DNA from: Ulota crispa
Taxonomy: Eukaryota; Streptophyta; Bryopsida; Orthotrichales; Orthotrichaceae
Length of the DNA: 64,000 bases
Direction: 5' to 3'
Assembly: GCA_963920765.1 (NCBI GenBank)
Contig: OY987243.1
Location: 2,480,001-2,544,000 of the forward strand
Under the pieces are notes generated by a model, which saw only the letters and a list, made by a program, of their open reading frames with translations, was not told the origin of the DNA and ran no database searches. Below, piece by piece: positions 189 through 58,200 of this stretch. The position numbers and the translations under genes were made by a program. Position 1 is the first letter of the stretch; every line of letters begins with the position of its first letter.

Positions 189-420
189 TTAACCCCTGAA
201 GGGCCCTTGGGCTCTAGAGATACAGTACCAAATATGGTTGCAAGCCATATTCAGAAGTTTGAATTAGTTAAAAATTAAGTGTTATAACCATACATATTGA
301 AGGGTTGTATGATGGTGGGTGCATAATTTTTTTTGGAAAGCCCTCAAAGCAACTCAAATATGTCTATACATATGGCCGTACATACTGCCGCAAAGGGTTT
401 TTGGACCATTCAAGGGTTAA
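189..420. mobile_element. TTAA-flanked MITE, subfamily A
   Basis: The ends read TTAACCCCTGAAGG and, inverted, TTAACCCTTGAATGG, each with TTAA outermost. The interior has no coding potential. It matches the repeats at 23033-23475 and 49514-49674. It keeps an unoccupied TTAA near 275 where the 23 kb copy carries a nested insertion. PiggyBac-type assignment rests on the TTAA duplication and CCC-type ends only. Confidence 0.7.
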
Positions 421-561
421 TACTCTCAAACATCTTAATGCTTTCTACCTTGGTTTTTTTCCTATTGAAAAAAAAAATTTCAAATAAAAGTTCATATTTA
501 AAATAAATAAGTGATGCTTTATAGTGGGCCAATCTAGATTGGATTTCAATGCAAGTTTCAA

Positions 562-1706
562 GGGGAAATTACAAATAGGGGCATGGAAATGAAAAAATAT
601 TACAAATAGGGCACAATTTCAAAACAATTTCTAATTTTTTGTAATTGTTTTTGGGTTTGGACACTGGTTGATTTAGATACATCACGTTAAATGTTAACTA
701 ACTTCCAAAAAATCTAGAAGTTTCTTCAAAAATTACCATCCCTTTTACTAAAATTTCTTTATTTAGACTTGCTTTGGAGAAGCAGGACCGAGGGCCCTTT
801 TGGGGGACATTTGGGATTTTGGGCATGTACCTATGGCTACAGTACTTTGCTTGATTTTTTGAAACTTTTATTGAAGGTGAGGAATTCATAGATTTACGTG
901 GGAATGTAATTTTTTCTTCATTCCAACAATTATTAAAGAAGTTAAAAATTAATTTCTGGAAAAAGCTGCTCCCCGGGCAGCCAAAAACTTTTTTTTAAAT
1001 TTCATTTTTTTCAAATAAAGATCTAAAATAGGTTCTTTGGACTTATATAGATGTGGGGAGCTTTGAATCATTCAATTCTAATAAATGAAATGAAAGTTAT
1101 GAGAAATTTTAGTTTGCGGGTAGGTGTGGTTTAGAGCTCTAAACCACACCTACCCGCAAACTAAAATTTCTCATAACTTTCATTTCATTTATTAGAATTG
1201 AATGATTCAAAGCTCCCCACATCTATATAAGTCCAAAGAACCTATTTTAGATCTTTATTTGAAAAAAATGAAATTTAAAAAAAAGTTTTTGGCTGCCCGG
1301 GGAGCAGCTTTTTCCAGAAATTAATTTTTAACTTCTTTAATAATTGTTGGAATGAAGAAAAAATTACATTCCCACGTAAATCTATGAATTCCTCACCTTC
1401 AATAAAAGTTTCAAAAAATCAAGCAAAGTACTGTAGCCATAGGTACATGCCCAAAATCCCAAATGTCCCCCAAACTGACAATGGTCCTTCAGGGGTTAAG
1501 TCTTTGAAATCTAACTAACATTTAATGAGATGTATCTAAATCAATAAATTTTCAAACCAAAAAAATTTACAAAAATTTACTAAATATTTTGAAATTGTGC
1601 CCCTATTTGTAATTATATTGAAATTGGGCCTTTATTTGTAATTATTTTGAAGTTGTGTCCCTATTTGTAAAAAATTCATTTTCATGCCCTTATTTGTAAT
1701 TTGCCC
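562..1706. mobile_element. Mutator-type foldback element with 9-bp target duplication
   Basis: The outer arms begin GGGGAAATTACAAATAGGGG and, inverted, GGGCAAATTACAAATAAGGG. They are flanked by a perfect 9-bp direct repeat AAGTTTCAA at 553-561 and 1707-1715. A 9-bp duplication with long inverted arms fits Mutator-like MITEs. The centre is occupied by a second, palindromic element (799-1499), so this is a nested pair. There is no coding region. Confidence 0.65.
799..1499. mobile_element. Palindromic TTAA-type MITE (subfamily B) nested in a Mutator-type element
   Basis: Two arms of about 338 bp are perfectly complementary by eye and meet at a GAGCTC centre (1136/1137). The right end continues to a typical terminus, AATGGTCCTTCAGGGGTTAA, ending at 1499. 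The left terminus is missing: sequence left of 799 does not match the family end. It is close to the older foldback at 31965-32680, whose arms have diverged. Confidence 0.7.
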
Positions 1707-1715
1707 AAGTTTCAA

Positions 1716-2041
1716 TCTAATTGAGATCCAGTTTCAAATCTAAATCCAAATCATATTCAGATTTGGATGTAAAGTGGACACATCAAAGGGTCTTGTAAAC
1801 TATCAAGGGACATCAAAAAGATGTCAATCAACACGCCCTACCAAGGGACATGGTTCACTTACTTTTGTACCACGGATAATTGACTACATTCCTACATTAC
1901 ACCCCAAATTTTCAGAATTTTTTGTTATCAAACCGCTTATAGTGGGTCCACAGTAGTGACCCCAGATGCGTAAAGAGGCCTTTTACATACCAAGGGACAT
2001 GCTAGTTTACCAAAGATACCAAGAAGTGTACTTTTCAATTA
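1716..2041. other. Unassigned AT-rich stretch
   Basis: No open frame of note. It contains loosely repeated phrases of the type 'accaagggacat' but no ends of a recognisable element. Confidence 0.4.
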
Positions 2042-4456: not shown

Positions 4457-4814
4457 TTAACCCTTAAAGGATGGATGGATCACCGTGGCTTGCCCTGCTT
4501 GTAGCATTCTACAGTGTTTTGCACATGGGCACCAATAGTATTGCTTCAAAAAGTTGGAAAAGTCAACAGTGCATGGTGCCCCTCATGAAAATTGCAAGAA
4601 GGACAGCTTGGGAGCTAACACCATGTATCATAATTTGGGTTACAAAATAAAATGAATGTATCTCAAGAGGTAAATTTTTGCTTTCCATGATGCACTACGC
4701 TTTTATGATCACCTTTGGAAAAAAATCAGATCAAAATCGGTATCTTTCTGGGATATAGAGTTTTTTTTTGGAGGCAACGGATGTTTTTTGTGCGTGCCAA
4801 CGTTTAGGGGTTAA
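4457..4814. mobile_element. TTAA-flanked MITE, small subfamily
   Basis: The ends are TTAACCCTTAAAGGATGG and, inverted, TTAACCCCTAAACGTTGG. The element is 358 bp including both TTAA copies, with no open frame. No close relative of the interior was noticed in the window. Confidence 0.6.
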
Positions 4815-7628: not shown

Positions 7629-8275
7629 TTAACCCCTAAATGCCCAGGCAACCAGATTTGGGTCGCAACAAAACTTTCAAGATGAATGAAACCTTATCAA
7701 ATCACCATTTTCAGTATTTGTTTTTCAATATAAGTTGGGTTTGAAGTCTATTTTCAACATCAAAATTCTGATTTTGAAAATGAAAATTGATGATTTTTCT
7801 ACTCAAGAATTTGTACAAAGGTATACATTGCAATCTTGAGTTTTCTAGTGTTGGAAGATCTTGAAAATGAGCCTCAAATACACTAGAGCTCGGAGAAAAA
7901 ATCACCTTAGATATCCATTTAAAAAATATAGGAGTAGATTTTGAAAGCCATAAATTGATTAAAGTTAAACATGTAATGACCACCTCATATTTTTTTGGTA
8001 ACCAACTCTTTAGATTTGACATGTAAGATGAGGATTAGAGAACTATAAGTCACTTTTGCAATTTTAACACCCTCATGTTCAAACATTATAATCTTTCAAA
8101 CTATAAGTGATATTGTTGTGTTTTCTTTTCCCATTTAATCTCTAACATGTTCAGTTAAAATTTCTATGGTTACAATTTTAAAAAACTTGATGAAATTTTT
8201 GAAAAGGTTGGTTGATTGTTCTGATTTACGGAAATTCCAAGAAGCTCAGATAGGGCTTGGGCATTTAGGGGTTAA
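7629..8275 (-). mobile_element. TTAA-flanked MITE, subfamily F (about 650 bp)
   Basis: The ends are TTAACCCCTAAATGCCCAGG and, inverted, TTAACCCCTAAATGCCCAAG. The interior is the reverse complement of the elements at 46840-47496 and 52058-52711 (shared phrase near 8040-8100 about ATCATGAGGGTGTTA in those copies). The three copies agree in length within about 10 bp. No transposase frame is seen. Confidence 0.7.
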
Positions 8276-11576: not shown

Positions 11577-14500
11577 CTAGTTCTCAGCAGCGCTTGCAGC
11601 ACTCAAATCCACGCTCAGATCCAGCACCTGCATATCATCCATTAATTTTGGAACAGAACAGCACAATGAACAAACATGACTACCAAACAAGCAAAACCAT
11701 ACATAGTATCCAATCGTGAAAGCCATTATAAATGAGTAATCGCTCCTCATGCCAGAAAACTCATAACTTGTTTGTACCGCGCCTAATACTGCACATAAGG
11801 TAGGAGGCTCGTGAATGGACCATCTAAGGGAAAGTGCGCTTTTGTGGGAAAATCAAGGCAACTTTGTAAAATGGAAATATTTTTGGTAAAAAGCCAAAGA
11901 AGTGACATTTCTATGGCCATTTAATTTGGAATTTTCTGAGTTGGTATGAATTAACTACAATTTATTGAAGCAAAAGGTACATAGGTAGCTATTCTTGATC
12001 ATAGGTGGTAGCATTCATGATGCAAAGGCCGCTTGTAAATGGAGCACATGAGTCCTAAAAGCAACCACTACAAAGTCAAGAATGCTCCAATAAGGCTCTT
12101 AAAGCGTGCAAGCACCCATTCCATATTCTAATACTCAAATCATGATTGAGAACAAGTTCTCATTTATTTTAGTATGACATATATCTATATTTTACTGAAA
12201 GACAAATCAGAACTCAATTATGACCAATAAGCACACTCAAGAGTGGCTCATGTCACTCTCTAAAACGGTACTTACTCAAGTACAATTTCTGAACATAGAA
12301 AATGTGACCCATTTAAAAACCCCATTTAAAAACCTTTGCGCACTGTTTTTGTGACCCCACATGGTCGGTTCAAAATGCCTGGTTCGAATTAGAGCCTCCT
12401 ACCTTAGCTGAACGCATGAAAATCTTTTTTCTCTTACCAAAAAGTCACAATAAAAACAATTCTGGTCTCGTAAAAACGCTCAGTTTGCTAAAGCAGAAAG
12501 TCCCCACACCATGCCCTTGATTCAATCCACAATATCAATATGTACAAAAGACCGACCACGTATGCATCACGGCAGCTACTATATCTTTACATACACTGAC
12601 TTGCGTATACACTTGTGCTACTTATAAGCAAACAATACTTGTGCTATTTGTAAGGTGCTCAAAAAAACCAACCTTTCCTGTGATACGTGCATACATTGCA
12701 AGTACATCTTGAACAGTTGTCTCAAAGTGTGTGGTTGGATCATAGCTCTACACAATCCATATAAAATCCTGGTGTAAAATAAGAAAGGAAAAAAGGCAAA
12801 GTATAAAACTTGGTAGATCTTTCATAGTGATCTTACATACAAAAGCCTGCCCACAGAAAACACTGCCAATAGTGGTCAAGAATAGGAGAAACAGTACCTT
12901 TGAGATAAAGCAATTGTCCAGAGACGAGTCGTTGACAGGCTCATACATGTCGTGAATGTCCATGATCTTCTCATCAATTTGTCCAAGCAGTGCAAGCCCC
13001 GGTTCAAGCTCAGCCTCCGGAGTAGTGGTTTCCACTTCTGCAGAAACAAATGCTATGTACTTGCCTCGTGGTGCCACGTTGTGAGAGTGGGAGCAGCAGA
13101 ACACATACCTGCCAACAAATAACACGTCATTCGAAGTTTTATCAACAGCAACTCGTCTATTTCTAGATATTTCTACTCTGTTTCTATGCTTTGGTTGTCC
13201 TTAAGATTTTTAAGCGGTGTAATCCTGCTTTGGCTAAATGTCTATAACCACTGATCTTCGAATGGAAAACGAGGTTTGTCTACTAATCTGCAACCTCCCA
13301 CTTTGACATTGCATAAGAAATTCTTACAAGGGATGGCTCTTGTGACTCAAGACAGCAGAAAATTCAGGATACTGTACCAGCAAATTTGAAAAGCAGAAGC
13401 GAAATCGTCACTAATGACATTTTCATAATAAGCATCGAAAAAGGGAGATTTACATATCTGATCGACGGTCGAGTTGCTTCTGAGGAAGAATAATTTGAAC
13501 AGAATCAGTGTCGTCTGTGTTTGGAATGGGGTGACTCATGAAACATATTGCTCGCACGACCTTCCCAACTCTTCTGACCTGAGAATGTACAAGTGTAGAA
13601 CACAAGGTATTCATGAAAAGATTCCTAAACTGACCAAGTAAGTCCAAGCATTGAGAGAAAACTTGAATGAGAGATACTCAAGAGCTATTTAAAGACCTCA
13701 GAAAGACATAAAAACACGAGCGTTGAATTATCAAAAATAAATAAAAATCAAACCTTGTTGGGCAAATATGATGGATCGCAGACTAGCTTTTCGGTTCTTG
13801 CGGTCTCACCCTCCGAGGTAACTCCTCTGACTCGACCCATCTCGTCAAATTCGACCTGAGACCAAAATTCTCCCATGACAAGAGATAAATAGCACCACAG
13901 AGATAACTGGTAAAGAGAAACCAAATGCCAACTTGAGAGTGAGTATGGCTTTCTGAGAGGGTAAAAGCAAATCACCAAAAAAGCCTGCTGAGAAGAAAAC
14001 TGGAAAGATATCGTTGTATTGGAATGGTGTACATACCTTGCACCCAGGTTTGGCAAGCATGTAGGTGCCACCATACACTGCACTAAGTCGGGCAAACCCC
14101 TGCAAAGAAGCACGACCACATTTGTGCGAAAGTAGGGTAAGAATCAAACCGACCCACCGGCAAACAATAATAGAAGCGTCGTCAAACACACACCTCAACA
14201 CATTGCTTGTTTATCCCTGTAGTAGCCAAAATCAATAATAAAAACAGTTCATCCTTGGAGATAAGAGTAAATTCCGAAACACATTTTCAATCCTTCAAAA
14301 CATAAGAACGTGATTTCTTCTTTGTATGCAAGAGACCAAAGACAGAAACCTGGGGCAACTCTCCAAGTCCATAGAGCGGATAAATATACGGAGAACCCCC
14401 TTGAAACCGGGCCATTGAGTCCGCATACAACTGCGCACACACGGACCATGGATAGGCTTGAATATGTGTATATGTATTTCAAACAAAATTAAGAAAAGCT

Positions 14501-17500
14501 TCACAGAGAAAGTCCGTGAAGAACAGATGAAAGGACACGCAGTGTCATGTTCACATAGACGTCTTCTATCATGCAGACAATTTAAAAGTCGACTCCAGCT
14601 CTATAGAATCTTTTTTTTGTGCCAAGCAAAGAGAACCTCGCTGCTTAGGAATGGAGCAAATTCACCTTCACTCTCAGTACAGTGTCCAACGATGGCTCAG
14701 ATAGGAACCGGTCATCCCGGTGCAATGCCAGTGAATGACCTACGAAGTCGATTGTGTTGTCGTCCAATCCATATTTGCTGCATCAGGAATAATACAGCGG
14801 ATTTTAGAATTGTATGTAAACAGTGAAAATTGAACCCATCACTTAACCCCTAAAGGCCCAGCTGTCCCCCCTTGAGATTTCGGGCATGTAACTATAGCTA
14901 ATGTAGTTTTTGTGATTTTTTTAAACTTTTATTGAAGGTGGGGAATTCCAAGACCTATCTGGGAATCTAATTTTTTTTGTCATTCTCACATTTGACGAAG
15001 AAGTTATGCAAGAATTTTTGCTAGCCGGGGAGGGAGGGCAATTTGGGCAGCTCAAAAACTTCTTGAAAATTTGTATTTTCTAAAAATAGAAATCTGAAAT
15101 TGGTTCTTTAGTTTTTTTTATATGTGGGAAGCTTTGAATCATTCAACTTCAATCGATGAGATGAAAATTATGAGATGTTTTAGTTTGTGGGTAGTTATGG
15201 ATTCTCTACTCTAAAATAAACTTTGAAGTCCTTTCTTTTCCACAATTTTTAATATTTTGGAAGAAAAACTAAACCTAAGGAAGCAGATTATTTATCACAA
15301 TATTATAACCGTTGGGATTTTCATTTTTTCATTTAAGAATTAAATTCTTAACAATTTGGTGATTTGACTCATTCTCTACTTCTTTTTACTTACTATTTTC
15401 CCCCATGTGTTGTATAGTTCCAATTGATTTGAAAATTCTCCCACACATACCTAACTTGGTGTGCTACATGTAAAAAATAAACCTCAACTTTGTGTAGAGT
15501 AATTTTTTCATGTAAGTGTGAACAAAGGCTTCTGAATTTTTTTGGATAGCACAAAAAAGAAACATTTTTTTTCACTTTAGATGTAAATATCTCCCTCCTC
15601 TCCATCTAGAATGACCTGATTTTTTCCCACAATTACCTCTTCTAGTCTAAGGCAAGATCCTATGGTTGGATTTGCAAAATAAACTTTATTTCCTACTTTT
15701 CTACTCATTCCCTCAAAGTGGTAGTTAACAGTGACTTTCACTGGAGAAAACTGCTTGGGCCTTTAGGGGTTAATTATATGACATGGAGTTCACTTTTGAA
15801 AATTTTAGGCTATCATGTCTTAAGGAATTTGCACTTAACATAAGCAGAAAGGTTAGCAGCGAGATGTGTTACTCGAAAAGCTCTTTGGTTGTGACAGTTC
15901 GCAAATCCATGCCTTCGTGAGTTCTAGAATCCTCCAATTCAAAACTCTGGACAAATATGAAGAACTTACGAGCACGTCTCTTCTCGAAAATTCCCATCAA
16001 GGGAGATTTCAAAGCCTCCACATCGTTTGCTGGAACTTTGTATATCTACTCAACTTACCACGGGTGAGATAAAACTTTGTGGATGCAACATGTAATCCTG
16101 AGACACCCTAATGTCTTTGTAGATCAGGTGAACAACATAAAATTATCCTTTCATCGATTAAGTCTAAGAACTAATATTTCAACAGTATTTAAGAACAGTT
16201 AGAGTTTGCCAACTCTGAAATTCTCAAGCAACTGTTACCGTTAATTTTTTCTGTTGTTAATTAATTGGTATTCTACATTCAAAGTTCAGCAAATCATCCG
16301 GATAGCAGTACCTTTCCCTGTTTGTACACGAAGCTGCCATCCACAGCCTTGAAAAAAAGGTACTTTGTGACATCCGTGAGGATAAGGACTCTCACAAGGG
16401 CGCCGTTTGCCATCATGAACTGCAATTCAGACCTTGCATTAATGCCTGCAGATGTGGTGTTTCAATCTTAAGCATACACCCATCTCTCTATCTAGAACAA
16501 AAAGAAAATGAAGACTCCGAATACCATCAGTTGCAAGAATTGCTACAAAGATGAAAAGGAACTTTGGATGAACAAGATACTACGTGCTTCACTTTGAGCA
16601 TTTTAACTTACGTAGGATTGCGATTTTGGGTGTCGAGCCAAATCTATTGAGATCGAATCAATATCACTAAGCACAAATTCTCTAATTATGAAATACTGCA
16701 AGATTCCTTGACCAAAAAGCCCATATTTGTGGCATCGTTAGCACTTCTAGCAATATTAATAAAAACTTGGGAAATGCCGAGCACCTTGGGAACCATGTCC
16801 ACGTTGTAATCCTTACTGGACCCCAAAAACGCCGGAGGCTTTTCCTCACCCCTGAACTTCTGCCATAGCTGAGAAACAGGCCACCAGAAAACACACCGGG
16901 AGTAAGCTTGAGTCTTTTTCAGGTAAATTTGCGTGAAGTGCAGCTCTAGGCTACACGAAACCAGCTCCCGTTTTGCTGCAGCACTCTCAGTTATAAATTT
17001 AGGTAGAACCCTCAAATTGGTTATCCAGAAAGCTGAGAATAGAAAAATTAGGGTTATGTCACCACATGTTTGATGGTCTCAAGACCAGATACGTTCCAAA
17101 CATTCCATGACCTAAATTATTAATCGACATAAAAATTGTCAGATACTGTACTCTGTTTCGGCAACAGCTCGATTCGCGGGTTGGAAAGGAAGTACTGGCA
17201 ATGTTCTAAAAACTACCTGGTTGAGATTTATAGACGCCGCAGCTCCACCGTAATAGTCATTCCTGTCCATTTGAAGCACCTAAAATTCCCCAACACTATC
17301 AGAAATACCATTTGCGGTTGAGAGCAAATCCAAACAGAGGTATTGTCAATCATTCATCCCTCTCCAACACTATAAATACCACATCACCGAACCAAACAAA
17401 TGCATAATATCTCAAGCAAAAGATACAATGTACTGAGCCCCACGCACCTTCAGGCCGTCCACGGAAAGTAGGCCGCTAAGAATGCATTCTTTGAGGCCAG

Positions 17501-22703: not shown

Positions 22704-23032
22704 GGTGCAGGGAAGCGCCTGAGCAGCGAAGACAGCACGGGCGGGACAAAGCAACAAACGAGGAGCAGGAGGATCTAGATCTACGAAAGAATTCGGGTTC
22801 TGAGGAGATCCGCTGTGCGGGGCGGGCAAGAGACAGGAAGACGAGAGAGACGAGAGAGTGAGAGACGGGATCACGGGAGGGCAGAGATGGCAAAAGCGCA
22901 CGCTGGTGCGGGACGCCCATGTTGGTATGGTAGGGGAGTGAAACCAAGTGCCACGTCACATGACACGTCACGTGCCACCTCAGCATGCAAGCGTGGACCA
23001 TCCTCATCGTTAGTGCAAACAAGCAAACTTGT
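22704..23032 (-). promoter_or_regulatory. 5' leader and proximal promoter of GDI copy 2 with ACGT-motif cluster
   Basis: The region upstream of the copy 2 ATG is GA-rich on the plus strand (CT-rich in the transcript sense) at about 22800-22880, as in many plant 5' leaders. About 250 bp from the ATG, positions 22951-22976 pack three ACGT cores: CCACGTCA, ACACGTCA and a CACGTG G-box. The first core reads TGACGTGG on the gene's strand, a bZIP-type site. Regulation through these motifs is inference. Confidence 0.5.
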
Positions 23033-31964: not shown

Positions 31965-32680
31965 TTAACCCCTAAAGGATTGTTGTTCCTTTAAGGGACA
32001 AATGGGATTTTGAGCATGTACTTAGAACCAAATTACTTTGTGTATTTTTTTGAAACTTTTATGGAGGATGGAGAATTCAAAAATCTGCAGGGGCATCAAT
32101 TTTTTTCTTCATCCCGATGTTTAATGAAGGAGTTGTTCTTGAATTTCTAGAAAACAATGGAAGCTAGATAACCCAAAAAATTCTTTAAATTTTTCAGCTT
32201 AAAAATTTAAAAATCTAAAATTGGTCCTTCAGATTTACACTTCTTTGAATCATTCAATTTCAATTAATGAGATGAAAATTATGAAGAGTTTTAGTTTGCG
32301 GGTAGGTGTGGTTCGAAGAGACTCCACATCTACCCACAAACTAAAACTCTTCAAAACTTTCATCTCATTAATTGAAATTGAAGAATTCAAAGCTTCCCAC
32401 ATATATGTAAATCTAAAAACCAATTTCAGATTTTTATTTTTAAAAAATGCAATTTTTTAATAAGTTTTTGAGCTACCTTGCCTCCCTTGTTTTCTAGAAA
32501 TTCATGAATAAATTCTTCAATAAACATCAAGATGAAGAATTTTTTTTGATGCCCATGTAGATTTTTGAATTCTCCATCCTCCATAAAAGTTTCAAAAAAT
32601 TACACAAAGTACTTTAGTTGTAAATACATGCCCAAAATCCTGTTTGTCCTCCAAAGGGACAACAATCCTTTAGGGGTTAA
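31965..32680. mobile_element. TTAA-flanked palindromic MITE, subfamily B
   Basis: The ends are TTAACCCCTAAAGGATTGTT on both strands. The whole 716 bp folds on itself around about 32320 with many scattered mismatches between arms. It is the diverged counterpart of 799-1499, showing that a foldback subtype exists. Confidence 0.8.
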
Positions 32681-32731: not shown

Positions 32732-33676
32732 CTAACCCCTAAAGGCTTTTGACTAAGTTTTCACCAAAACTGCTCCAAAACTGCCATTTCTAGTACAAGT
32801 ACCAAATTTTAGAAAAAAAAATCATTTATGGACACATGTAACCATAAGATCTTGTACTACACTAGTATCTAAAGATGTGAAAAAAAATCCAAAAATTCCC
32901 ACTATATAGATTGTTTAGATGTTTGAATTTAAATTGACAAAATGCCAATTTCTGTCCCTACAAAATCCCAAGCAGCTGCTCTTCACAAGGTCATATTTGT
33001 ATGAATTATTTTCCAAAATGAATGTAACTCATTGGATTCATTTGTCAAGGCAAGTTAGGTGTACACTTGAAAATTTTCAAATCATTTGGAATTATACAAC
33101 ACATGGGAAAATAATAATAATTATGAAGAAGTAGAGAATGATTTGAAACACTAATTATTGTTAATTTTTTTATAATTAGAGTGGAAAATTTGAATTCCAA
33201 TGGTTGTAATGTTGTGATAAACAATATGCATCCTTTCATTTTGTTTTTGTTCCAAATACTAAAAATTGAGTAAAATAAAAGACTAAAAGTTTATTTCAAA
33301 GTAGAGAATCCATAACTGCCTATAAACAAAATCTCCTTATAATTTTCATCTCATTGACCAAAATGGAATGATTCAAAGCTTTCCATGTATATATAAATCT
33401 AAAGAACCAATTTCACTTTTTTGTTTTTTATAAATGTAATTTAATTAAAAAAATTGAGCTTCCCAGTCTACCCAACTAATAGAGAAAACTACATATCATG
33501 CAATAACTTGTGAACCATGTAATCAAAAGTTATGAAAATAGTTGGACTTCAGAGCTACTCCTTGGACACGTCACGTGTAAATATTCCTAAGAAAAAAAAC
33601 AAAAAATCCATTAGTAGTGAGCTGCCCAAAATTGCTATGTTGCCAAAAAAACATTGTTTGGGCCTTTAGGGGCTAA
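32732..33676. mobile_element. Subfamily B MITE flanked by CTAA instead of TTAA
   Basis: The ends are CTAA-CCCCTAAAGGC and GCCTTTAGGGG-CTAA. The flank is CTAA as a direct repeat on both sides, which suggests use of a variant target rather than mutation of one side. It is related along its length to 14843-15773. It overlaps the next element by three bases. Confidence 0.7.
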
Positions 33677-35022: not shown

Positions 35023-35947
35023 TTAAACCCTTAAAGGACCAGACCCTTTTTTTTTTAATAGAAATACAGCAATTTCGGGCAGGTACTTGTGATTGGAGCT
35101 TTTCATATTTTTGGTTGAAATTTTAACAAAATGTGGGGACGAGATTTATCTTTAAGATGTATTAAATTTCATGACATTTGGAATTAGGAGTAAAAAGTTA
35201 TGGCCTAATATGTTGTTTTTTATGTTTGTCAGGCAGTATGTGCAAAATTTTAAAAATCACTTTTCAAAAAAATAAATTCAAATTGGTTTAGGAGATTCAT
35301 GTGAATGTAGGAAGCTTTGAATCATTCCGTTTGGATCAACGAGATGAAAGTTATGAGAATTTTTTGTTTGCGGGCAGTTATGGATTCTCTACTCCAAAAT
35401 AACCTTTGAAGTCCTTTATTTTACTCAATTTTCAACATTTTGGAAAAAGAACAAAACCAAAGGATGAATATTGTTTATGACAACATTATGATCATTAGGA
35501 TTGGCATTTTTCATTTCCATAATTAAATTCTTAACAATTTTGTGTTTTGAATCATTCATTGTTTCTTTTTACTTACTAATTTTTTTCCATATGTTATACA
35601 ACTCCAAATGATTTGAAACTTTTTTGACATGTACTTTACTTAGGTGGAATAAAGAATTTAGAGAAGCACCACCCACATGGCCTTTTTTCCTTAGAAATTT
35701 CACCTTCCAAAGGATAGCTGCCCGGTTTTTCACAAGACATTTTTGAATATTCAAACCATTCTAACTTCCAATCCACATGGTGGAAAACTTTGAATTTTTT
35801 TCCACATCTTCTAAAACCATTACTTTACAAGATCCTACAATTACATAAGCACAAAAATGTTTTTGTTTTCAAATTTGGTTGATGCTCTAAAAATGGCAGT
35901 TTTGAAGAGTTTTTGGTGAAAACTTTGCTTGGTCCTTTAAGGGTTAA
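35023..35947. mobile_element. TTAA MITE, subfamily G, nested in subfamily D
   Basis: The ends are TTAAACCCTTAAAGGACC and, inverted, TTAACCCTTAAAGGACC. The empty site ATAACTTAAGCGATT is preserved near 47518-47532. A full-length relative lies at 53606-54534. Confidence 0.8.
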
Positions 35948-36191: not shown

Positions 36192-37113
36192 TTAACCCCT
36201 AAAGGACCATGGCCTTTATTTTGTCAAAAGACACTCAAAACTGCCACTTCTATGGCTAAGAGTAAAAAAGTTTGAAAATTGGTCTTTTTGCATATCTAAC
36301 CGTAGGATCTTGTACTAGACTAGTATAAGAATATGTCATACAAAACCCAAGAACTTTGACCACATAGATTGGAGGATGTTTGCATTCAAAGTGAAAATAA
36401 CAAGGTATTTTGCACCTTGCATGACTACATTTTTTAAATTTGAACTTCTTTAACTTAAAATTTTTGCACTACAGAGTTTGGAGCCTTATTTTTTGTGGTG
36501 GGAAGTTGAGTTGGGAGTTTTAGTAAAAAACAAAAACAAAAAAAACTAGGTTTTCATTCTTAAAAAAAAACATTAAGTACAAGAAGGTATGAAATTGAAT
36601 AAGAACTTAAATTGTTAATAACCTTGCAATGGAATCAAAACGCAATAATCCCAACAGTGAAATTGTTCTAGAAAGCAAACTTCACCCTTTCCAATAGTTT
36701 TTTTTGAAAAAATATTAAAATTGCATTCAAAAATGAAGTTTATAAGTTATTTTTTCAAAAAGATGCTTGAATTGCCCAAAAAACAAGATTGTCCATAACT
36801 TTCTCATAACTAGCCCAAATGGAATGAATCAAAGCTTCAGATGTAGGCAAAGATATAATCTATGAGAAAAACGGTTTAAAAAAATCAAGTTGTTGTATAA
36901 AAAAATTTGTTGCCGGGCTCTCCAAATTTGTGCTTATTTGGGCATAACTTTTGCTCCCTTGCATTGATTGGAATAAAATTATATCTCCCAAATGCTAATG
37001 TGTTTTTCTATCTTCAAAAAAAATTTCAAAAGTTTAGGACAAAAATTGAGGCTGTAGGTGCATGCCCAAAATCCCATTTGTCCCAGTAGGGACAATGGTC
37101 CTTTAGGGGTTAG
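36192..37113. mobile_element. TTAA MITE, subfamily B, nested in subfamily D
   Basis: The left end is TTAACCCCTAAAGGACCATG. The right end is CCTTTAGGGG followed by TTAG, a one-base decay of TTAA. The empty site CATGACTTAAGTAGCCCC is preserved near 47766. The interior matches 45587-46575 and 52708-53609. Confidence 0.8.
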
Positions 37114-37268: not shown

Positions 37269-38452
37269 GATTGGAAATCAGCAAAATAACATGCATGGTC
37301 AATTTCATACCTACTTACAGTAACTTAAAAGTGGCTCACACTAAGGTAGAAGGTTCATAAACTGACCATTTAAGCTATCTAACTCATCAATGATAATAAC
37401 CCCTAAATGACCAAGCCATTTTTTCTGCAAAAAACACAAAAAACTACAACTTTTGGGGAAGCAAGTACAATGGTAAGAAAAAATATGTCTTACAAGAATT
37501 CAACCATAAGATCTTATAGTAGACTACAAGAAGTACACGTGGTAAAAAATTCAGCTCAATCTACACAAAAATGAGTGAGATATTTACATATGAATTGTGG
37601 AAAATAGTTTTTATTGTTGCTGCCCAGAAATTTCAGAAGGCTTTGACCACTCTTAGATCAAAAACATTACTCTACACAAAGTTGAGGTTTATTTTTCCCA
37701 TGTACGAGACCAAGTTAGGTATGTGTGGGAGGATTTTCAAATCAATTGGAACTATACAACACACGGAAAAAAATAGTAAGTAAAAAGAAGTAGAGAATGA
37801 GTCAAAACACTAAATTGTTAAGAATTTAATTCTTAAAATGAAAAATGCAAATCCCAACAGTTACAATGTTGTGACAAACAGTCTACATCCTTTGGTTCTA
37901 TTTTTTTTTTCCAAAACAATGAAAATTGAGTAAAATAAAGGACTTCAAAGTTTATTTTAAAGTAGAGAATCTAGAACTGCCCGCAAACAAAAACTCCTCA
38001 TAACTTTCATCTCATCTATCAAAATTGAATGGTTCAAAGCTCCCCACGTCTATATAAGTCTAAAGAACCTATTTCAGATTTTTTGTTTGAAAAAAATGAA
38101 ATTTTCAAAGAAGTTTTTGGCTACCCGAGGAGCAACATTTTCCAAATTTTCATGCACAACTTCTTCAATAAATGTTGGAATGAAGAAAAAATTACATTCC
38201 CACATAGATCTTTGAATTCTGCACCTTTAATAAATGTTTCAAAATATCACGCAAAGTAGTTTAGCCATAGGTACATGCCTGAAACCCCATTTGTCCCACG
38301 AAGGGACAATGGTCCTTTGATTGGAAATCAGCAAGATAACATGCATGGTCAATTTCATACCTACTTATGGTAACTTAAAAGTGGCTCACACTAAGGTAGA
38401 AGGTTCATAAATTGACCATTTAAGCTATCTAACTCATCAATGATAGTAATAA
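37269..38452 (+). repeat. Direct duplication whose first copy holds an element and whose second does not
   Basis: Sequence 37269-37395 recurs at 38319-38447 with few changes. In the first copy a TTAA-type element follows; in the second the original sequence continues. The junction (38313-38318, TCCTTT) coincides with the same hexamer at 37259-37264. Confidence 0.75.
37396..38318. mobile_element. Subfamily B TTAA-type MITE truncated at its right end
   Basis: The left boundary reads ATAA-CCCCTAAATGACC. The right side stops inside the terminal repeat at GGTCCTTT, where it joins duplicated flanking DNA. The interior matches 14843-15773 and 57291-58200. Confidence 0.65.
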
Positions 38453-39138: not shown

Positions 39139-40487
39139 TTAACCCTTTAAAGACCACACACATTTTTCCAAAATCCACTAGAAACCGGGGTAATAAAATT
39201 AGATGTATATTTGAAACAAATATGGATCCAATTTGAATAATCCAACCATACAAACGTAAAGGACACCTTGTTTGTTGTAATGCAGGCCTCTTTAATTTAT
39301 GTTTTCTAAAAACAAATGCACAAATTAACAAATTAACCCTTGACAATGTGTACAAATTAAGCCCATTGGTTCCCTATAAAAAAGTTTGCACTTGGCATAT
39401 GCCACATGGTAGTCATTGTGCAACTTTTGTGGCAGCAAGGCCACCATATTCCTTAGCATGGCTAGAGTTGAATCCGACTTCCTTATTCTTAAACTTTTGA
39501 AATATGAGCATTGTAAATTGCTAACTAACCTCTCACTTGAGAGGTGTGGCAATGCAAGCAATTTAATGCTTTGTTGCAGTTAATATGATATCAAGTAAGC
39601 AAATATAAAAACAAGTTTGTTAATTTATGACAATACAAAAATTAACTTTCATGATGTGCATAAATTAGGCTAATTTTTTCATTTATGAAAAAAACGTAAA
39701 TTAAAGAGGCCTGTTGTAATGTGTCAAAATTTTAGCTAGATCTACTGTTGGAGGTGAAATATTATAATGATTGAGTGAGCCGTATATGGAAAATCTCTAG
39801 TTTTTCATGCTTGTGTGGTTTTGAATGTTAACGCTTCATGCAAGCTTTGATTGAGAAGAGCCTTACATTTCTAGAAAGTAGGGTTTCCCACCTTTCCAAC
39901 AAGACTAGTTTCACTCAAAATAGACAAAAATAGCAATCACAAGGTGTAGCTAAGTGGACAAAAAGGGTCAAAAATCCCATTTTCTTTGCTACCCTAAAAT
40001 GGTTCTAAGAGAAATTTGATAATTATTACGGAAAATGTGATCGGTAAAAGCAATCTAGAATTGGCCTTAAATGTAGGATGAGTTTTTTATAAATGAATTG
40101 ATAGCATCATTTCAATGGATTCTCAAGTAGTACAATTGTACTACTACCATGTAGATAAACAATACAAGCATATTCTTTGAACAATTCGAATTTTTTTAAG
40201 ATTGCACAATTGAAATGTGGCATTCTTCTTGGATATTTGATGTATTGTGTTGTTGCTTTGGTCCATCTTTGACCAAATATGGATATTTTGAGGCCATCAT
40301 GTATAAACACCATTATTTATCAACTCCCATATCTAATTCTATTGTTCTTTTTTGGGTTGGATGCAAAATTCTTGTGATCGCTAGTGTTTTTCAAGATTAT
40401 TTTCCAAATTGTTGAGCGATTTTATCATATAGGCCAAAAACTACTCTCCCGAACCAAAATATGGTTCAATGGTCTCTAAAGAGTTAA
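39139..40487. mobile_element. TTAA-flanked element, subfamily L, with nested hAT MITE
   Basis: The ends are TTAACCCTTTAAAGACCA and, inverted, TTAACTCTTTAGAGACCA. It is 1349 bp, about 910 bp without the nested element and its duplication. No transposase frame is visible. Confidence 0.65.
39283..39713. mobile_element. hAT MITE with 8-bp target duplication
   Basis: The ends are CAGGCCTCTTTAATTTA and its complement. They are flanked by the perfect direct repeat TTGTAATG at 39275-39282 and 39714-39721. CAG-type ends plus 8-bp duplication define hAT elements. Nested in the TTAA element 39139-40487. Confidence 0.75.
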
Positions 40488-42244: not shown

Positions 42245-42782
42245 TTAACTCCTAAGCGCTCAAGCAACCATTTTTTTGGTAGTTGTTTTTTTTTTTTTGA
42301 GGGTTTTCAAGATGCAAAAAAAAATCAAAAAATTAAAAAGAGAGCAAATCTTCTTTTCTACTCAATTTGAATCATGTCAATCCAAGTTAAATTCCACCAA
42401 GGAGAAATTTTTGAAGACAAACATTTCAACATTTGCTAGTGTTATAAAATTTACTATTTCAAGAAACTAATGACGTTCTCTCCTTCAAAAGGATTATGTT
42501 TTTTAATTTTCAAATAGAATGCTTATTTTTAACCAATCACACAACATTTTAAGTTTTTTGAATAGAATTTGTAATTTTGATGATGATTAAATGGTAAGTG
42601 CTTCTAAATTCATTAAATAAGAATCCAAACCCCGTTTTGAATGTTTGATCATATGAATAATTACTAAACATCATAATTCTTATTTTCTCTTTTGAAGCAA
42701 AATTCATTGAAGTTACAAAAGTATCATTTTATAACCCATCTATATTTTGTCCTTACCCCATGCTTGGGCATTTAGGGGTTAT
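42245..42782. mobile_element. TTAA MITE related to subfamily J
   Basis: The left end is TTAACTCCTAAGCGCTCAAG. The right end is CTTGGGCATTTAGGGG followed by TTAT. It is 538 bp without a coding frame. Confidence 0.6.
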
Positions 42783-45586: not shown

Positions 45587-46575
45587 TTAACCCCTAAAGG
45601 ACCATTGTCCCTACAAGGACAAATGGGATTTTGGGCACGTACTTACGGCCTCAATTTTTGTCTTAAACTTTTGAAACTTTTTTTGAAGATAGAAAAACAC
45701 ATTAGTTTTTGGGGAATATAATTTTTATTCCAATTGATGCTAGGGAGCAAAAGTTATGCCCAAATAAGCACAAATTTGGGGACTAGGGGCAGCAAAAAAT
45801 TTCTTATAAAAACTTGAAAAACAAATTTCTTAATAGATTATATCCTTGTTTACATCAAGAGCTTTGATTCATTCCATAACTTGAACAACAAATTTCTTAT
45901 AGATTATATCCTTGTCTACATCAAGAGCTTTGATTCATTCCATTTGGACTAGTTATGAGAAAGTTATGGACAATCTTGTTTTTTGGGCAACTCAAGCATC
46001 TTCTTGAAAAAATAACTTATAAACTTCATCTTTGAATGGAGGTTTAACATTTTTTCAAAACAAATTGTTGGAGAGGGTGAAGTTTGCTTTCTAGAACAGT
46101 CTCACCATTGGGATTATTGCGTTTCAATTCCATTGCAAGGTTATTAGCAATTTAAGTTTTTGTTCAATCTCATACCTTCTTCTACCTAATGTTTTTTAAA
46201 GAATGAGAATTAAGTATTCTTCTTTTATTATTTTTTCCCAAGATTCCCAACTCAACTTTCTACCATGCAAAAATAGAATTCCAAATTGTGTGGTGCAAAA
46301 ATGTGAAGTTAAAAATGTTCAAAGCTAAAAAATCTAGTCAGGCAAGGTGCAATTTTTTTATTTTTTATTTTTCCACTTTAAATGCATATATCTTCCAATC
46401 TGTGCGGTCAAAGTTCTTGAGTTTTGTATGACACATTCTTATAGTAGTCTAGTACAAGATCCTATGGTCACATATGCAAAATGCCTGAATTTCAAACTTT
46501 TTTACTCTTTGCCATGGAGGTGGCAGTTTTGAGTGTCTTTTGACAAAGTAAAGGCCATGGTCCTTTAGGGGTTAA
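45587..46575. mobile_element. TTAA-flanked MITE, subfamily B
   Basis: The ends are TTAACCCCTAAAGGACCATT and, inverted, TTAACCCCTAAAGGACCATG. At 989 bp it carries a local duplication (AGATTATATCCTTG repeated near 45834 and 45912), which 52708-53609 also shows. Close relative of 52708-53609 and 36192-37113. Confidence 0.8.
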
Positions 46576-46839: not shown

Positions 46840-47496
46840 TTAACCCCAAAGCAACCTTGGAGATTTTTGAGCTTCTAGGAATTTGCTGTAATTTGAACAA
46901 AAAACCAAACTTTTGATAATTTGTATCAATTCTTTTTGAATTGTAATTGTAGAAAATCAAACTAGATATGTTAAAGATTATATTAGAAAAGAAAACACAA
47001 CAATATCTCTTATGGATTGAAAGATTATAATATTTGATCATGAGCGTGTTAAAATTGTGAAAGTGATATGAAGTCTTTCAATCTTCTTTTCACATGTCAA
47101 ATTTAAAAAGTTGGTCACCAAAAAAATATGAGGTTAAAGGGCCTAACATGCATAACTCCAATCAATTTATGACTTCTCAAAGTCTACTCTACAATATTTT
47201 TAAATGAATTTCTAATGTGATTTTTTTTCTCAAAGATCTAGTGTGTTTGAGGCTAATTCCTAAGAGCCCTCAACACTACATAAAGCCAAGATTGCAATGG
47301 ACACTCATGCACAAAATCTTGAATAGAAAAATCATAATCAATCATTTGCAAAATCAAAATTTTGAAGCTAAAACTAAACTTCAAAAAGAGTTTTTCAAAA
47401 AACAAAACTACTAAAAATAGTAATTTGGTAAGGTTTTGTTTAACTTCAAAAATTGGTTGAGGACTTAATCTGTCCTCAATGTTGTTTTGGGGTTAA
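46840..47496 (+). mobile_element. TTAA MITE, subfamily F, abutting subfamily D
   Basis: The left end is TTAACCCCAAAGCAACC and the right is GTTTTGGGGTTAA. Its right TTAA overlaps the TA of the subfamily D element that follows. Same interior as 52058-52711. Confidence 0.7.
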
Positions 47497-47898
47497 AGTG
47501 GAAGCACCCATACCCAATAACTTAAGCGATTCTATAGAGAGGTACAAAGAGTTTGAGGCAAAAACATAATTTTCCCATATAGGAAGATAAGAAATATTGG
47601 GATTGCAACTTTTTCTTAATTTTTTTTGTAAAATTGAAATTACTCTAAATTTTGGGAGTCAAAAAGTGTTCCACACCCATTACCAATGTTTAGATGTATG
47701 CAATTCCTATACTAGCCAAACTAGTTTCTGCTTATTACTTCCTACCTCACTTTGGGACATGTGGCATGACTTAAGTAGCCCCAACCTTGAAAAAATCTGA
47801 AAAGCGCATTCCAAAGCACCTATCTTTGCTCATGGTGGAAATAGCACACCCTACTAATTGGGAATGAGACGTTGTTGGCCATGGGTGCTTCCACCTTA
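47494..47898. mobile_element. Uninterrupted TA-flanked MITE, subfamily D
   Basis: TA-AAGTGGAAGCACCC to GGGTGCTTCCACCT-TA, 405 bp. It is the empty-site reference for 34993-37235: both TTAA sites used there are present once here. Confidence 0.75.
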
Positions 47899-48265
47899 TT
47901 TGTTTTTGCATCAAGACTAGGCCACACCAAAATAAACTTGCGTTTCAAAAAGTTGTTTTCTAAAAAAACAAGTGGGTGGCATGTACTTTTTTGTGTAAGA
48001 GTAGATTTTTTAGCATTTTAACATTCAACTTTATGGTATGTTTAAAATTGGTAAATTTGAGTTTTCACAAGCATCATCTCCAACCTCCTGTCCTTGAATG
48101 GTGGAAAGGTTATATTTAGTAAAAATGCATGGAACCTTGGGCACGTTGCTTGTCCCCCAAGTTTCCAAAAATACAAATTTTTCCTTCATTTGTTTCAAAC
48201 CAATTGTTTTGGCATATGTGGCCTTGGCATGAGAAGGTTTAGGGTAATGCTTGAAGTAGAAAGTG
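47899..48265. repeat. Dispersed diverged repeat
   Basis: From about 47935 the phrases GCCACACCAAA, GTACTTTTTTGTGTAA and later TTCCTTCATTTGTTTCA resemble 61145-61445 in the same order. The family is unknown. Confidence 0.4.
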
Positions 48266-49513: not shown

Positions 49514-49674
49514 TTAACCCTTGAATGGCCCTTGGGCCTGGAGCTGCGGGGCCGTATTTTTGTACATTCTCTAGCAACTAGAGTGCAAAACAACGCCTTT
49601 CAACAAACTTGGACATATGGTCAAATAATTTATACATACAGCCACAAAGGGCGTTCGTGCCATTCAGGGGTTAA
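49514..49674. mobile_element. TTAA MITE, subfamily A, shortened
   Basis: TTAACCCTTGAATGGCCCTT and, inverted, TTAACCCCTGAATGGCACG. At 161 bp it is shorter than 189-420 but shares its termini and the CATACAGCCACAAAGGG-like right arm. Confidence 0.65.
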
Positions 49675-52711: not shown

Positions 52712-52812
52712 CCTCTTAAGGACCATAGCCTTTACTTTGTCAAAAGACACTCAAAATTGCCACCTCTATGGCAAAGAGTTAAAAAGATTGGAAGATATAT
52801 GCATTTAAAGTG

Positions 52813-52846
<34 letters not shown>

Positions 52847-53609
52847 CACCTTGTCTGACTAGATTTTTTAGCTTTGAACATTTTTAACTTCACATTTTTG
52901 CACCACACAATTTGGAATTCTATTTTTGCATGGTAGAAAGTTGAGTTGGGAATCTTGGGAAAAAATAATAAAAGAAGAATACTTAATTCTCATTCTTTAA
53001 AAAACATTAGGTAGAAGAAGGTATGAGATTGAACAAAAACTTAAATTGCTAATAACCTTGCAATGGAATTGAAACGCAATAATCCCAATGGTGAGACTGT
53101 TCTAGAAAGCAAACTTCACCCTCTCCAACAATTTGTTTTGAAAAAATGTTAAACCTCCATTCAAAGATGAAGTTTATAAGTTATTTTTTCAAGAAGATGC
53201 TTGAGTTGCCCAAAAAACAAGATTGTCCATAACTTTCTCATAACTAGTCCAAATGGAATGAATCAAAGCTCTTGATGTAGACAAGGATATAATCTATAAG
53301 AAATTTGTTGTTCAAGTTATGGAATGAATCAAAGCTCTTGATGTAAACAAGGATATAATCTATTAAGAAATTTGTTTTTCAAGTTTTTATAAGAAATTTT
53401 TTGCTGCCCCTAGTCCCCAAATTTGTGCTTATTTGGGCATAACTTTTGCTCCCTAGCATCAATTGGAATAAAAATTATATTCCCCAAAAACTAATGTGTT
53501 TTTCTATCTTCAAAAAAAGTTTCAAAAGTTTAAGACAAAAATTGAGGCCATCGGTGCCTGCCCAAAATCCCATTTGTCCTTGTAGGGACAATGGTCCTTT
53601 AGGGGTTAA
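52708..53609. mobile_element. TTAA MITE, subfamily B, middle of the chain
   Basis: TTAACCTCTTAAGGACCATA to ACAATGGTCCTTTAGGGG-TTAA. Both TTAAs are shared with neighbours. It carries a 31-base A run at 52813-52843 where relatives have mixed sequence. Confidence 0.8.
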
Positions 53610-54534
53610 CCCATAAAGGACTAGACCCCATTTTTTAAAAACATAGTGATTTTGGGCAGGTATGTGTGATTGGAGATTTTCATATTTGAGGCTGATTTTT
53701 TAATGGAATGTGGGAACAAGGTTTATCTTTCATGTGTGACAAATTTCATGATATTTGGAATTACAACTAAAAAGTTATGGCCTAAGATGTTGTTTTTTAC
53801 GTTCATCGGGTAGCCTGCACAGATCTAATTTTTTTTTTTTTTTCAAAAACAACAAATTCAAATTGGTTTAGGAGATTTATGTGAATGTAGGAAGCTTTGA
53901 ATCATTCCGTTTTGATCAACGAGATGAAAGTTATGAGGATTTTTTGTTTGCGGGTAGTTTTGAATTCTCTACTCAAAATAAACTTTGAAGTCCTTTATTT
54001 TACTCAATTTTCAACATTTTGGAAAAAAAACAAAACAAAAGGATGAAAATTGTTTATTACAACATTACGGCCATTGGGATTGGCATTTTTCATTTCCATA
54101 ATTAAATTCTTAACAATTTAGTGTTTTGAATCATTCTCTACTTCTTTTTACTTACTAGTTTTTTTCCTTGTGTTATAAAATTCCAAATGATTTGAAACAT
54201 TTTGGACATTTACATTACTTAGGTGGAATAAGAAATCTAGAGAAGCACCACTCACAAAGCCCTTTTTTCATAGGAATTTGCCCTTTTGAAGGGTAGCTGC
54301 CCGGTCTTTCACAAGACATTTTTGAATATTCAAACCATTCTATCTTCCAATCCACGCAGTGAAAAACTCTTAATTTTTTTCTACATCTTCTAAAACTATT
54401 CTTCTACAAGATCCTACAGTCACATATGCATAAAAACGTTTTTGTTTTCAAATTTGATTGATGCTCTAAAAATGATAGTTTTGGAGAGTTTTTGGTGAAA
54501 ACTTTGCTGGGTCCTTTGGGTTAAGCAAATCACA
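53606..54534. mobile_element. TTAA MITE, subfamily G, last of the chain
   Basis: TTAACCCATAAAGGACTAGA to TGGGTCCTTTGGG-TTAA. Full-length relative of 35023-35947 (929 against 925 bp). Confidence 0.75.
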
Positions 54535-55732: not shown

Positions 55733-55915
55733 GGGCTTTGCAAGAGAATATGATCATAATGTACCCTTGTAACCATTCCCTAAATGATTTTTTTTCTTCA
55801 AAATCAAAAAAAAAAAAAACATAGATGCCAAAAGTGGTGGAATTTTATTATTTTGTATGGTAAGGAAATACTTGCAATTTTTCCTTTGCAATAATTGCAT
55901 TTGTTTGTTTATTTT

Positions 55916-56845
55916 TTAACCCCTAAATGCCCAAGGGTGTTTTTCTTGTTTTCAAAAGGCAGTTTTGAAGTTTTGGTTTGTCATTGTAAGATCATTATTA
56001 AACATCAAAATAATTTTGTAACCGTTGAATCTTGAACTTCAAGACTTTTACATGGTGCTACCAAAAAAAATCCAAAATGGCCGCGCAGATTTTAAGATGT
56101 TTGCAATTGAATGATGATGAGAATAAAAATTTTTGCTTTTTTTGGAGCAGCCCGAAACTTCTAATGCAAATTGGCAACTTCTAGATACAAAATTGGAAAA
56201 CAACCACTTAGATTGCTTTAGTGTTTATTGTTGTTACTTCAAAATCAATGGCCCCCCTTCCAAATTCATGACCACAATTTCACAAATGAGCCTACAACGC
56301 AACTATCAAAACGCAACTGTCTAATACAAAGAAATTTTTAGCTCCAATTATCGACCAAAAATCATTATGTATGAAAGAATTTTCAACATTGAAAGGATTC
56401 TAATTTTTACAACAAAGACATTCCAAGTGAAATTAGTCCAAAAGCACTTTTAGATTTTGTTAGATGTCAAAATTTCAATAAAAAGGCCCTTATTGCCCAA
56501 GGGAGTGCCCAAGGGAAATCTTCACTTTTTGCTCAACTTGATGCCCGCCTTTTCAACGTGGCAACTTCTCATAGGCTCTGTAACACCATTCATGACACTA
56601 TTCATGACACTATTCACAACACTATTCATGTCACAAAATGTATGCTTGTAGTTAACCTTCCACCAAAAACAATTGGAATAAGATATGGAGGAAGTTGAAT
56701 TTGAACCGTGGAGTTAACTTTAATGTGCAACTTTTCCAAAAAAAAGAACCTGAAAATGATAAAATCCATACCTTCAACAAGGTTTCAAAGTTTCTTGAAG
56801 TTTTTTGGACACCCAAATTGGGTGCCTTGGGCATTTAGGGATTAA
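55916..56845. mobile_element. TTAA MITE, subfamily J
   Basis: TTAACCCCTAAATGCCCAAG and, inverted, TTAATCCCTAAATGCCCAAG; 930 bp. A 14-base unit like TATTCATGACAC is repeated four times near 56585-56635. No transposase frame. Confidence 0.75.
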
Positions 56846-56961
56846 CCCTTACATGTCAAAACTCAACAAGTGGAGATTGGATTCTAGTGCATTTTGAAAG
56901 TCTCTGACATAGGGATAATTAAACAATTTGTATGGATGTGCCAACCATGCGCTTCATATAC

Positions 56962-57290
56962 TTAGGGCATCTCCATTGGTGGCTTGGGTTGGCTCAAAAT
57001 GGATGAAAAGTGTTGAGACCCCTCTCAAAACCCTCTCAAACACTTTGATCTAGCGAGTCTAGCGAGTCTAGCAAGCCACTCTTCAAGCCACTATTCATTC
57101 ACTATTCACCCTAAGTTTCGTGAGCTTTATCCTCTACTTCCCTTGATAAGTGGTCAACTGCTTATTTATGGGGCATGTTGGAGTGTACGGCCACTTTTTC
57201 AAAGAGCATGGGTGGAGATTGAGAGCCTTGAGGCCTTGCCAAACCAAATGGAAAACTTTGAAAGAGCCTAGTATGGTGGAGATGCCCTTT
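56962..57290. mobile_element. Harbinger-type MITE
   Basis: TTA-GGGCATCTCCATTGG to GGTGGAGATGCCC-TTT: the right TTA has one changed base. Three copies of TCTAGCGAG lie near 57050. It abuts the truncated TTAA element that follows. Confidence 0.6.
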
Positions 57291-58200
57291 TCTATGTGAA
57301 AGTCATTGAAAGTTGCCACTTTGGGGGGAATGAGTAAAAAGTAGGAGATATAGTTTTTTTTGCAAATCCAAATGTAGGATCTTGCCTTAGACTACAAGAG
57401 GTACTTGTGGGAAAAAATCAGGTCATTCTAGATGGACAAGAGGGAGATATTCACATCTGAAGTGGAAAAAAAATGTTTTTTTCCTTGTTGCCCAAAAATT
57501 CAAAAGCCTTTGACCACTCTTACATGAAAAAAATTGCTCTACACTAAGTTGAGATTTATTTTTTCCATGTAGAAGACCAAGTTAGGCATATGTGGGAGAA
57601 TTTTCAAATCAATTGGAACTATACAACACATGGGAAAAAATAGTAAGTAAAAAGAAGTAGAGAATGAGTCAAATCACCAAATTGTTAAGAATTTAATTAT
57701 TGAAATGAAAAATGCAAATCCCAACGGTTATAATGTTGTAATAAACAATCTACTTCCTCAGGTTTAGTTTTTTTCCCAAAATATTGGAAATTGTGGAAAA
57801 TATAGGACTTCAAAGTTTATTTTAGAGTAGAGGATCCGTAACTACCCACAAACTAAAACATCTCATAACTTTCATCTCATTGATTGAAATTGAATGATTC
57901 AAAACTTCCCACTTACAAAAATATCTAAAGAACCAATATAAGATTTTTATTTTTAAAAAATACAAAATTTAAAGTAGTTTTTGGGCTGCCCAGATTGCCC
58001 TCCCTCCCTCGGGTAGCATAAATTCTTGCATAAATTCTTCGACAAAAATCAGAATGAAGAAAAAATTAGATTCCTGCCCAGATCTTAGAACTCCCCATCT
58101 TCAATAAAAGTTTCAAAAAATCACAAAAACTAAATTAACTATAGGCACATGCCAGAAATCCATATGTCCCCGAGGGGACAGCTGGGCCTTTAGGGGTTAA
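57291..58200. mobile_element. Subfamily B TTAA MITE lacking its left terminus
   Basis: The right end CAGCTGGGCCTTTAGGGG-TTAA is typical and the interior matches 14843-15773 in reverse. The outermost 25 or so bases on the left are absent, and the Harbinger-type MITE sits at the break. Confidence 0.7.

Follow-up and report, generated by a model that had tools for sequence, protein, structure and literature searches.

The window analysed here is a 64,000-nucleotide stretch of the Ulota crispa genome (contig OY987243.1, positions 2,480,001 to 2,544,000; G000:C2:2480001-2544000 in an assembly of 274.8 Mb). The matK encoded on a plastid contig of this assembly has its closest named relatives in mosses (Orthodontium lineare, 84%; Bartramia pomiformis, 83%; Campylium stellatum, 81%), which places the host among them. 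The window carries many short elements bordered by TTAA, which are very probably non-autonomous piggyBac transposons of a moss, i.e. miniature inverted-repeat transposable elements (MITEs). These elements duplicate TTAA, have CCC-type ends, share those ends with piggyBac elements that encode a three-aspartate (DDD) transposase, and include at least one derivative of such an element formed by internal deletion. In keeping with the definition of a MITE, they are short, lack a transposase, occur in high copy number and are tied to an autonomous element. A first-pass annotation, made from the letters alone, had proposed TTAA-flanked piggyBac-like MITEs, and the duplication, the ends and the PF13843 genes found in the genome bear this out. 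Most likely, the elements were moved by the moss's own piggyBac-type transposons.

The end motif CCTTTAGGGGTTAA matches the window 44 times at up to three mismatches, compared to a mean of 8.28 in 100 shuffles, the best of which gave 17 matches and none of which reached 44; nine copies are exact. A looser form of the end, TTAACCCYTRAAKG, occurs 20 times. Genome-wide, there are 15,411 exact copies of TTAACCCCTAAAGG (reversed control, 1) and 28,726 of TTAACCCYTRAAKG (control, 15). The density of TTAACCCYTRAAKG is 0.3125 per kb in the window versus 0.1045 per kb in the genome, an approximately 3-fold difference. When the window was scanned for the 14 inner bases beside a TTAA-like flank, 46 candidate ends were obtained, some of them surely by chance. 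Sixteen candidate pairs were listed, with CCCCTAAAGG-type ends and terminal inverted repeats (TIRs) of 8–25 bp at up to two mismatches. All window subfamilies have TTAA followed directly by CCCYTRAAKG-like ends. Thus, the window elements have short TIRs beginning with CCC or CC[C/T]T, as described for piggyBac in passages of PMC2872659 and PMC10813416. The 16 pairs span 11,747 bp, or 18.4% of the window, which falls short of the quarter given in the first-pass annotation. Scaling this figure by the density ratio would put the share of such elements in the genome, crudely, at ∼6%.

Because TTAA is its own reverse complement, its presence on both sides does not by itself tell whether it was duplicated or belongs to the element. 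Ends bordered by CTAA are informative, since a duplication places CTAA on the far flank and a terminal repeat places TTAG there. We considered the first 30 listed of 284 genomic CTAA ends, all on contig C1, and accepted a partner end if it scored at least 11.3 of 12.3. Twelve loci were excluded before the count, five without a candidate partner and seven with weaker ones (L070, among the latter, showed CTAA). At the remaining 18 elements, the far flank was CTAA in eight, TTAA in ten and TTAG in none. One of the eight, L069, has a second partner of equal score with TTAA. CTAA makes up only 1.8% of ends flanked by TTAA or CTAA (284/15,695), and independence would thus predict CTAA at ∼2% of far flanks. 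Scoring the flanks of genomic ends was a check proposed with the first-pass annotation, and its outcome is also clear for the far larger set of CCCCTAAAGGACCA ends chosen irrespective of flank: TTAA lies directly outside 7,555 of 8,876 (85.1%), and the reversed controls gave 0.

Empty sites point the same way. We compared the joined flanks of 27 elements with the sequence in hand and found that two of them, 35028-35943 and 36196-37109, split a repeat of which another copy, 47494-47901, is continuous, with one TTAA per site. The site at 35028 has an additional A separating TTAA from CCC, and the one at 36196 has TTAG as its second copy; we interpret both as subsequent changes. The uninterrupted paralogues are more simply explained as sites never filled than as products of footprint-free excision. 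Another junction-spanning match joins the flanks of L078 to L060 (79 columns, 81%). The 4-bp TTAA-type duplication is real.

In a profile search of the genome with PF13843, 116 of 528 first-look candidates were scored and gave at least 120 matches, every one of which exceeds the curated cut-off (best E = 1.3e-73); there were no matches in 14 control genomes. One of the transposase pieces, P0003, matches the piggyBat transposase (9c0f; E = 2.6e-24) and that of 6x67 (E = 7.6e-20), which we take to be the Trichoplusia ni piggyBac. P0001 matches both of these Protein Data Bank entries as well. The aspartates of TVDE, TDNFF and GVDIVDQ in P0003 align with those of piggyBat. Across 12 aligned sequences (moss, insect and unnamed), the first and second aspartates (P0003 positions 116 and 195) are invariant, and the third (GVDxxDQ) is retained in those of the 12 rows that extend to it. 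Cysteine-rich C-terminal tails are visible in P0002 and P0004, with no match to a Pfam zinc finger. Among the database matches listed, the closest proteins are 46–50% identical and unnamed, and the named ones come from animals, at ∼30–33%. No named plant protein is among the 25 and 60 matches listed, most of which are nameless, in a search that reaches only relatives with shared exact words. When 30 moss copies were placed on a tree with 25 database proteins, the moss label required five changes, at least four of them on well-supported branches, and we therefore recognize several deep transposase lineages. Six loci linked to the window elements (L004, L014, L017, L018, L026 and L030) all fall within one of these.

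How are these transposases linked to the ends? In the first 30 transposase loci (4.1 kb, extending 1.5 kb past the domain), an end at up to two mismatches was found in none. With extended flanks, at 13 loci, the check proposed with the first-pass annotation, for a piggyBac transposase bounded by the same ends, came out in its favour: two loci are bounded on both sides, and four more are bounded on one side by homology. The L004 element is 5,738 bp (1871-7608 in L031, contig C5) and the L014 element 5,448 bp (2375-7822 in L032, contig C4). Each is bounded on both sides by TTAA directly beside CCCCTAAATGCC, one outer flank of L014 being TTGA, and homology between the two loci stops at precisely these junctions; the one extra match, which lies 1.2 kb outside L004, belongs to a separate repeat. 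The window element at 55920-56841 aligns with the 3′ end (582 columns, 83.7%) and the 5′ end (134 columns, 75.4%) of L004, in the same order and with the transposase omitted; in L014, it aligns with the 3′ end and, on the 5′ side, with 58 bp of subterminal sequence. Since both ends of L004 are represented, this element is an internally deleted copy. Four other loci (L017, L018, L026 and L030) have a common end, TTAA directly beside CCCCTAAA(A/G)GA, which lies 3′ of the transposase, 1.63–1.76 kb from the domain. This region is homologous to the window ends at 37400 and 15769, with the L018 match to 14847-15769 ending before the terminus. At L003, which belongs to the same clade, a similar end lies at 1.94 kb and faces inward, only 44–60 of its columns being homologous to window ends.

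Several observations weigh against this interpretation. Ten of the 18 paired CTAA elements have TTAA opposite, which we read as later mutation. Of the 120 transposase matches, just 10 are free of stop codons, and several of these are partial, which bears on present activity. Only one deep clade is tied to the ends, save for an isolated end match at L023. Boundaries at both ends were obtained in only 2 of the 13 extended loci, and a secure end pair is absent in L001, L002, L003, L011, L016, L020 and L023. For the L017 type, no 5′ end was found within 3.5 kb, leaving four loci with a 3′ end alone, and the same kind of end also occurs on separate, outward-facing elements beside L002 and L014. Judged on terminal-repeat similarity alone, L004 and L014 stand at 0.019 and 0.026 of 156 mismatched null pairs, and similarity is not significant at the other 11 of the 13 loci. 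This test is weak because MITEs are dense everywhere, and we therefore base the transposase link on homology across longer end regions.

These points raise the question of whether the ends and transposases are associated by chance, with MITEs that happen to lie beside piggyBac relics unrelated to them and a true partner located elsewhere. The high density of ends, the weak separation of L004 and L014 from mismatched pairs, and the free elements with L017-type ends that adjoin L002 and L014 would all be compatible with this. However, homology between independent loci stops exactly at the ends (both ends for L004 and L014, one for L017, L018, L026 and L030), the shared ends are found on matching sides of the gene, facing inward, and homology runs hundreds of bases into the window MITEs, which makes chance association improbable. 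PIF/Harbinger and Tc1/mariner elements are common MITE groups in plants. This is supported by a passage in PMC10004981, and the targets of Tourist-type PIF/Harbinger MITEs (TTA or TAA, 3 bp) and of Tc1/mariner-type MITEs (TA) are all contained in TTAA. Yet the full 4 bp are directly repeated, as CTAA/CTAA in 8 of 18 pairs and at 32736-33672 in the window, the empty paralogues carry a single TTAA, and the linked transposases belong to PF13843. The direct CTAA repeats rule out both groups, and we give an origin in either almost no credence. Sola3 is another superfamily that duplicates TTAA. So is Kolobok, as described in a passage of PMC6004289, which gives its termini as AG/RR; the ends here are CCC, and Kolobok was rejected on this terminal feature. 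In the moss genome, piggyBac transposases bear these ends, although no search was aimed at Kolobok or Sola transposases, and another TTAA-duplicating superfamily is a very improbable source.

With piggyBac transposons as the source, the number of transposases involved can be considered. The first-pass annotation envisaged one. All subfamilies share the CCC-type ends described above, and the linked transposases fall in one clade, so that a single family mobilizing every window subfamily is conceivable on the sequences, but doubtful. The two subgroups of the linked clade have different ends, CCCCTAAATGCC and CCCCTAAA(A/G)GA, which match different window elements; given these and the several deep lineages, one transposase is probably too few. 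piggyBac transposases cut at the CCC ends, generate hairpin ends with TTAA and join them to a TTAA target. In the moss, transposases of one clade would recognize the shared ends, excise elements at CCC and join them to TTAA sites, duplicating TTAA. Deletion derivatives that retain the ends would be moved and multiplied in trans over a long period, and the elements of the window may have been mobilized by two or more transposase subgroups whose ends differ slightly.

To our knowledge, piggyBac is best known from animals and has rarely been reported as a major source of elements in plants. The moss elements resemble the piggyBac transposons of 6x67 and piggyBat (9c0f) in their TTAA duplication, CCC-type ends and DDE_Tnp_1_7 domain with aligned aspartate motifs, but their host is a moss and their transposase is only ∼30–33% identical to the named animal proteins. 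Among MITEs, Wuneng and Microuli are from rice. A passage in PMC2872659 describes these as plant MITEs that duplicate TTAA, like those of the moss; we set them beside ours by description, a transposase link not being seen there. The same paper reports coral CMITEs, which like the moss elements are piggyBac-related, duplicate TTAA, have CCC ends and come with empty-site evidence. The coral elements are ∼100 bp, at an estimated 18–737 copies per family (PMC2872659), whereas those of the moss are mostly 600–1350 bp, with 28,726 degenerate-end matches genome-wide. The bounded moss elements, at ∼5.4–5.7 kb, are larger than the well-defined piggyBac element (∼2.5 kb in a passage of PMC10813416). PMC10004981 counts ‘PiggyBac’ as one of the MITE superfamilies of angiosperms, and a repeat table for C-fern, in PMC6890710, has 1,230 PiggyBac annotations totalling 122,417 bp. 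A MITE survey of 207 plant genomes, including four bryophytes, treats five main superfamilies, and ‘piggyBac’ is absent from its main text (PMC12550479). In the open-licence literature, where broad queries were followed through their best-ranked papers, no account of moss piggyBac MITEs came up; in one moss paper, PMC10619864, ‘piggybacking’ is the sole related word. Known in corals and listed in angiosperms, with no moss account found, the elements are therefore of a familiar type, found in a host and on a scale that were unexpected.

We lean slightly towards the view that mosses are a long-term home of piggyBac, in which several anciently diverged transposase lineages in one genome made many thousands of MITEs (crudely 6% of it), some recent enough to have left nearby copies with 97–98% identity, and that plant surveys built on five superfamilies may have missed a main source of moss MITEs. 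A land plant with 528 first-look transposase candidates and many thousands of ends indicates that the superfamily can thrive in plants. piggyBac is popular as a genetic tool largely for its precise TTAA chemistry, and the moss copies offer plant-resident relatives. These data also suggest that such elements may be misfiled where repeat annotation considers only the five superfamilies usual for plant MITEs.

To assess age, we took the element at 45591-46571, which has 3,311 candidate places in the genome, and scored 40 of them. Among these, only 52712-53605 and G000:C2:2572318-2573225, ∼39 kb further along the contig, are copies with 97–98% identity; the remaining scored copies show 84–92%. Most copies thus look old, although there seems to have been some recent activity locally. 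Past TTAA, 45591-46571 and 52712-53605 have unrelated outer flanks, except that four more bases match beside one of the two TTAA sites; this speaks for separate insertions rather than a segmental duplication. The three near-identical copies lie within ∼50 kb, as if by local hopping.

In all, the window holds about 15 elements of 153–1341 bp, some with one end decayed, together with several single ends (Table 1). The ∼24 elements of the first-pass annotation were of the right order. Two of the 16 candidate pairs are alternatives for the left end at 193. The 4-bp flanks are identical in 13 pairs and differ in three, namely 35028-35943 (TAAA/TTAA), 36196-37109 (TTAA/TTAG) and 42249-42778 (TTAA/TTAT). 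Among the 13 with identical flanks, 56846-58196 was dropped as a false join, because homology to 14847-15769 sets the true left edge near 57285, with the TTAA end lost. We also excluded 23123-23348, for its poor left end. Conversely, 39143-40483 and 37400-38318 were added to the tally beyond the paired list. Two groups of interiors were seen: the elements starting at 36196, 45591 and 52712 are mutually related, and those at 14847, 57285, 32736, 35028 and 31969 form a separate related set. A tblastn search with 29 piggyBac proteins or pieces found no transposase remnant in the window (best E = 0.14), in agreement with the first-pass annotation.

Table 1. Elements and related features of the window
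Feature	Coordinates	Strand	Remarks
Composite or decayed element	193..1495		TTAA on both sides; alternative right end at 416; holds a perfect 676-bp palindrome
350-bp element	4461..4810		TTAA/TTAA; TIR ∼10 bp
639-bp element	7633..8271		Ends CCCCTAAATGCCCA; TTAA/TTAA
923-bp element	14847..15769		Last 351–363 bp 73–77% homologous to 3′ end of transposase loci L017, L026, L030
708-bp element	31969..32676		Long TIRs; TTAA/TTAA
937-bp element	32736..33672		Direct flanks CTAA/CTAA, a non-palindromic duplication
916-bp element within a repeat	35028..35943		Uninterrupted paralogue 47494-47672, single TTAA
914-bp element	36196..37109		TTAA/TTAG; uninterrupted paralogue 47625-47901, single TTAA
Element, right end decayed	37400..38318		First 351–365 bp 73–82% homologous to 3′ end of L017, L018, L026, L030
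1341-bp element	39143..40483		TTAA/TTAA; ends CCCTTTAAAGACCA / CTCTTTAGAGACCA; relative L016 573-1481 (88–91%)
Probable element	42249..42778		TTAA/TTAT; right part (138-530) 81% to end left of L023 transposase
981-bp element	45591..46571		TTAA/TTAA; 3,311 candidate relatives genome-wide
‘Empty’ paralogue of sites of 35028-35943 and 36196-37109	47494..47901		Uninterrupted
153-bp element	49518..49670		TTAA/TTAA
894-bp element	52712..53605		97.7% identity to 45591-46571 (821 columns); right TTAA common with end at 53610
Beginning of another element	53610..53640	+	CCCATAAAGGACTAG; partner end not found
922-bp internally deleted piggyBac	55920..56841		Bases 1-579 = 3′ end, 789-921 = 5′ end of L004/L031 element
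912-bp element, left terminus lost	57285..58196		87% to 14847-15769; right end CCCCTAAAGGCCCAG beside TTAA

The palindrome within 193-1495 (799-1474) consists of two 338-bp arms, 100% complementary and with zero spacer; it could be a fold-back of very recent origin, or else an artefact of assembly. A further palindromic repeat, 41293-41592, has 118-bp arms and is 74–78% identical to larger palindromic repeats that flank the transposase in L004, L014, L017, L026 and L030. It may be a subterminal part of piggyBac, or an independent fold-back element that uses piggyBac elements as insertion sites.

Exons of a Rab GDI gene lie on the minus strand of the window. One of them is present twice, ∼6 kb apart (12748-13200 and 18732-19145, minus strand), and more GDI exons lie at 19991-20404 and 22542-22955. 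The exon pair is a tandem or partial gene duplication, with the MITE at 14847-15769 between the copies. At 58660-59358, three overlapping minus-strand frames are open through a tandem repeat that encodes Ser/Leu-rich TSHFSLL units. Elsewhere in the assembly, a matK frame (L084, G000:C7:6541578-6542525) with 522 open codons, like that of the plastid contig C157, sits on a 22-Mb contig and represents either a recent insertion of plastid DNA in the nucleus or an assembly error.

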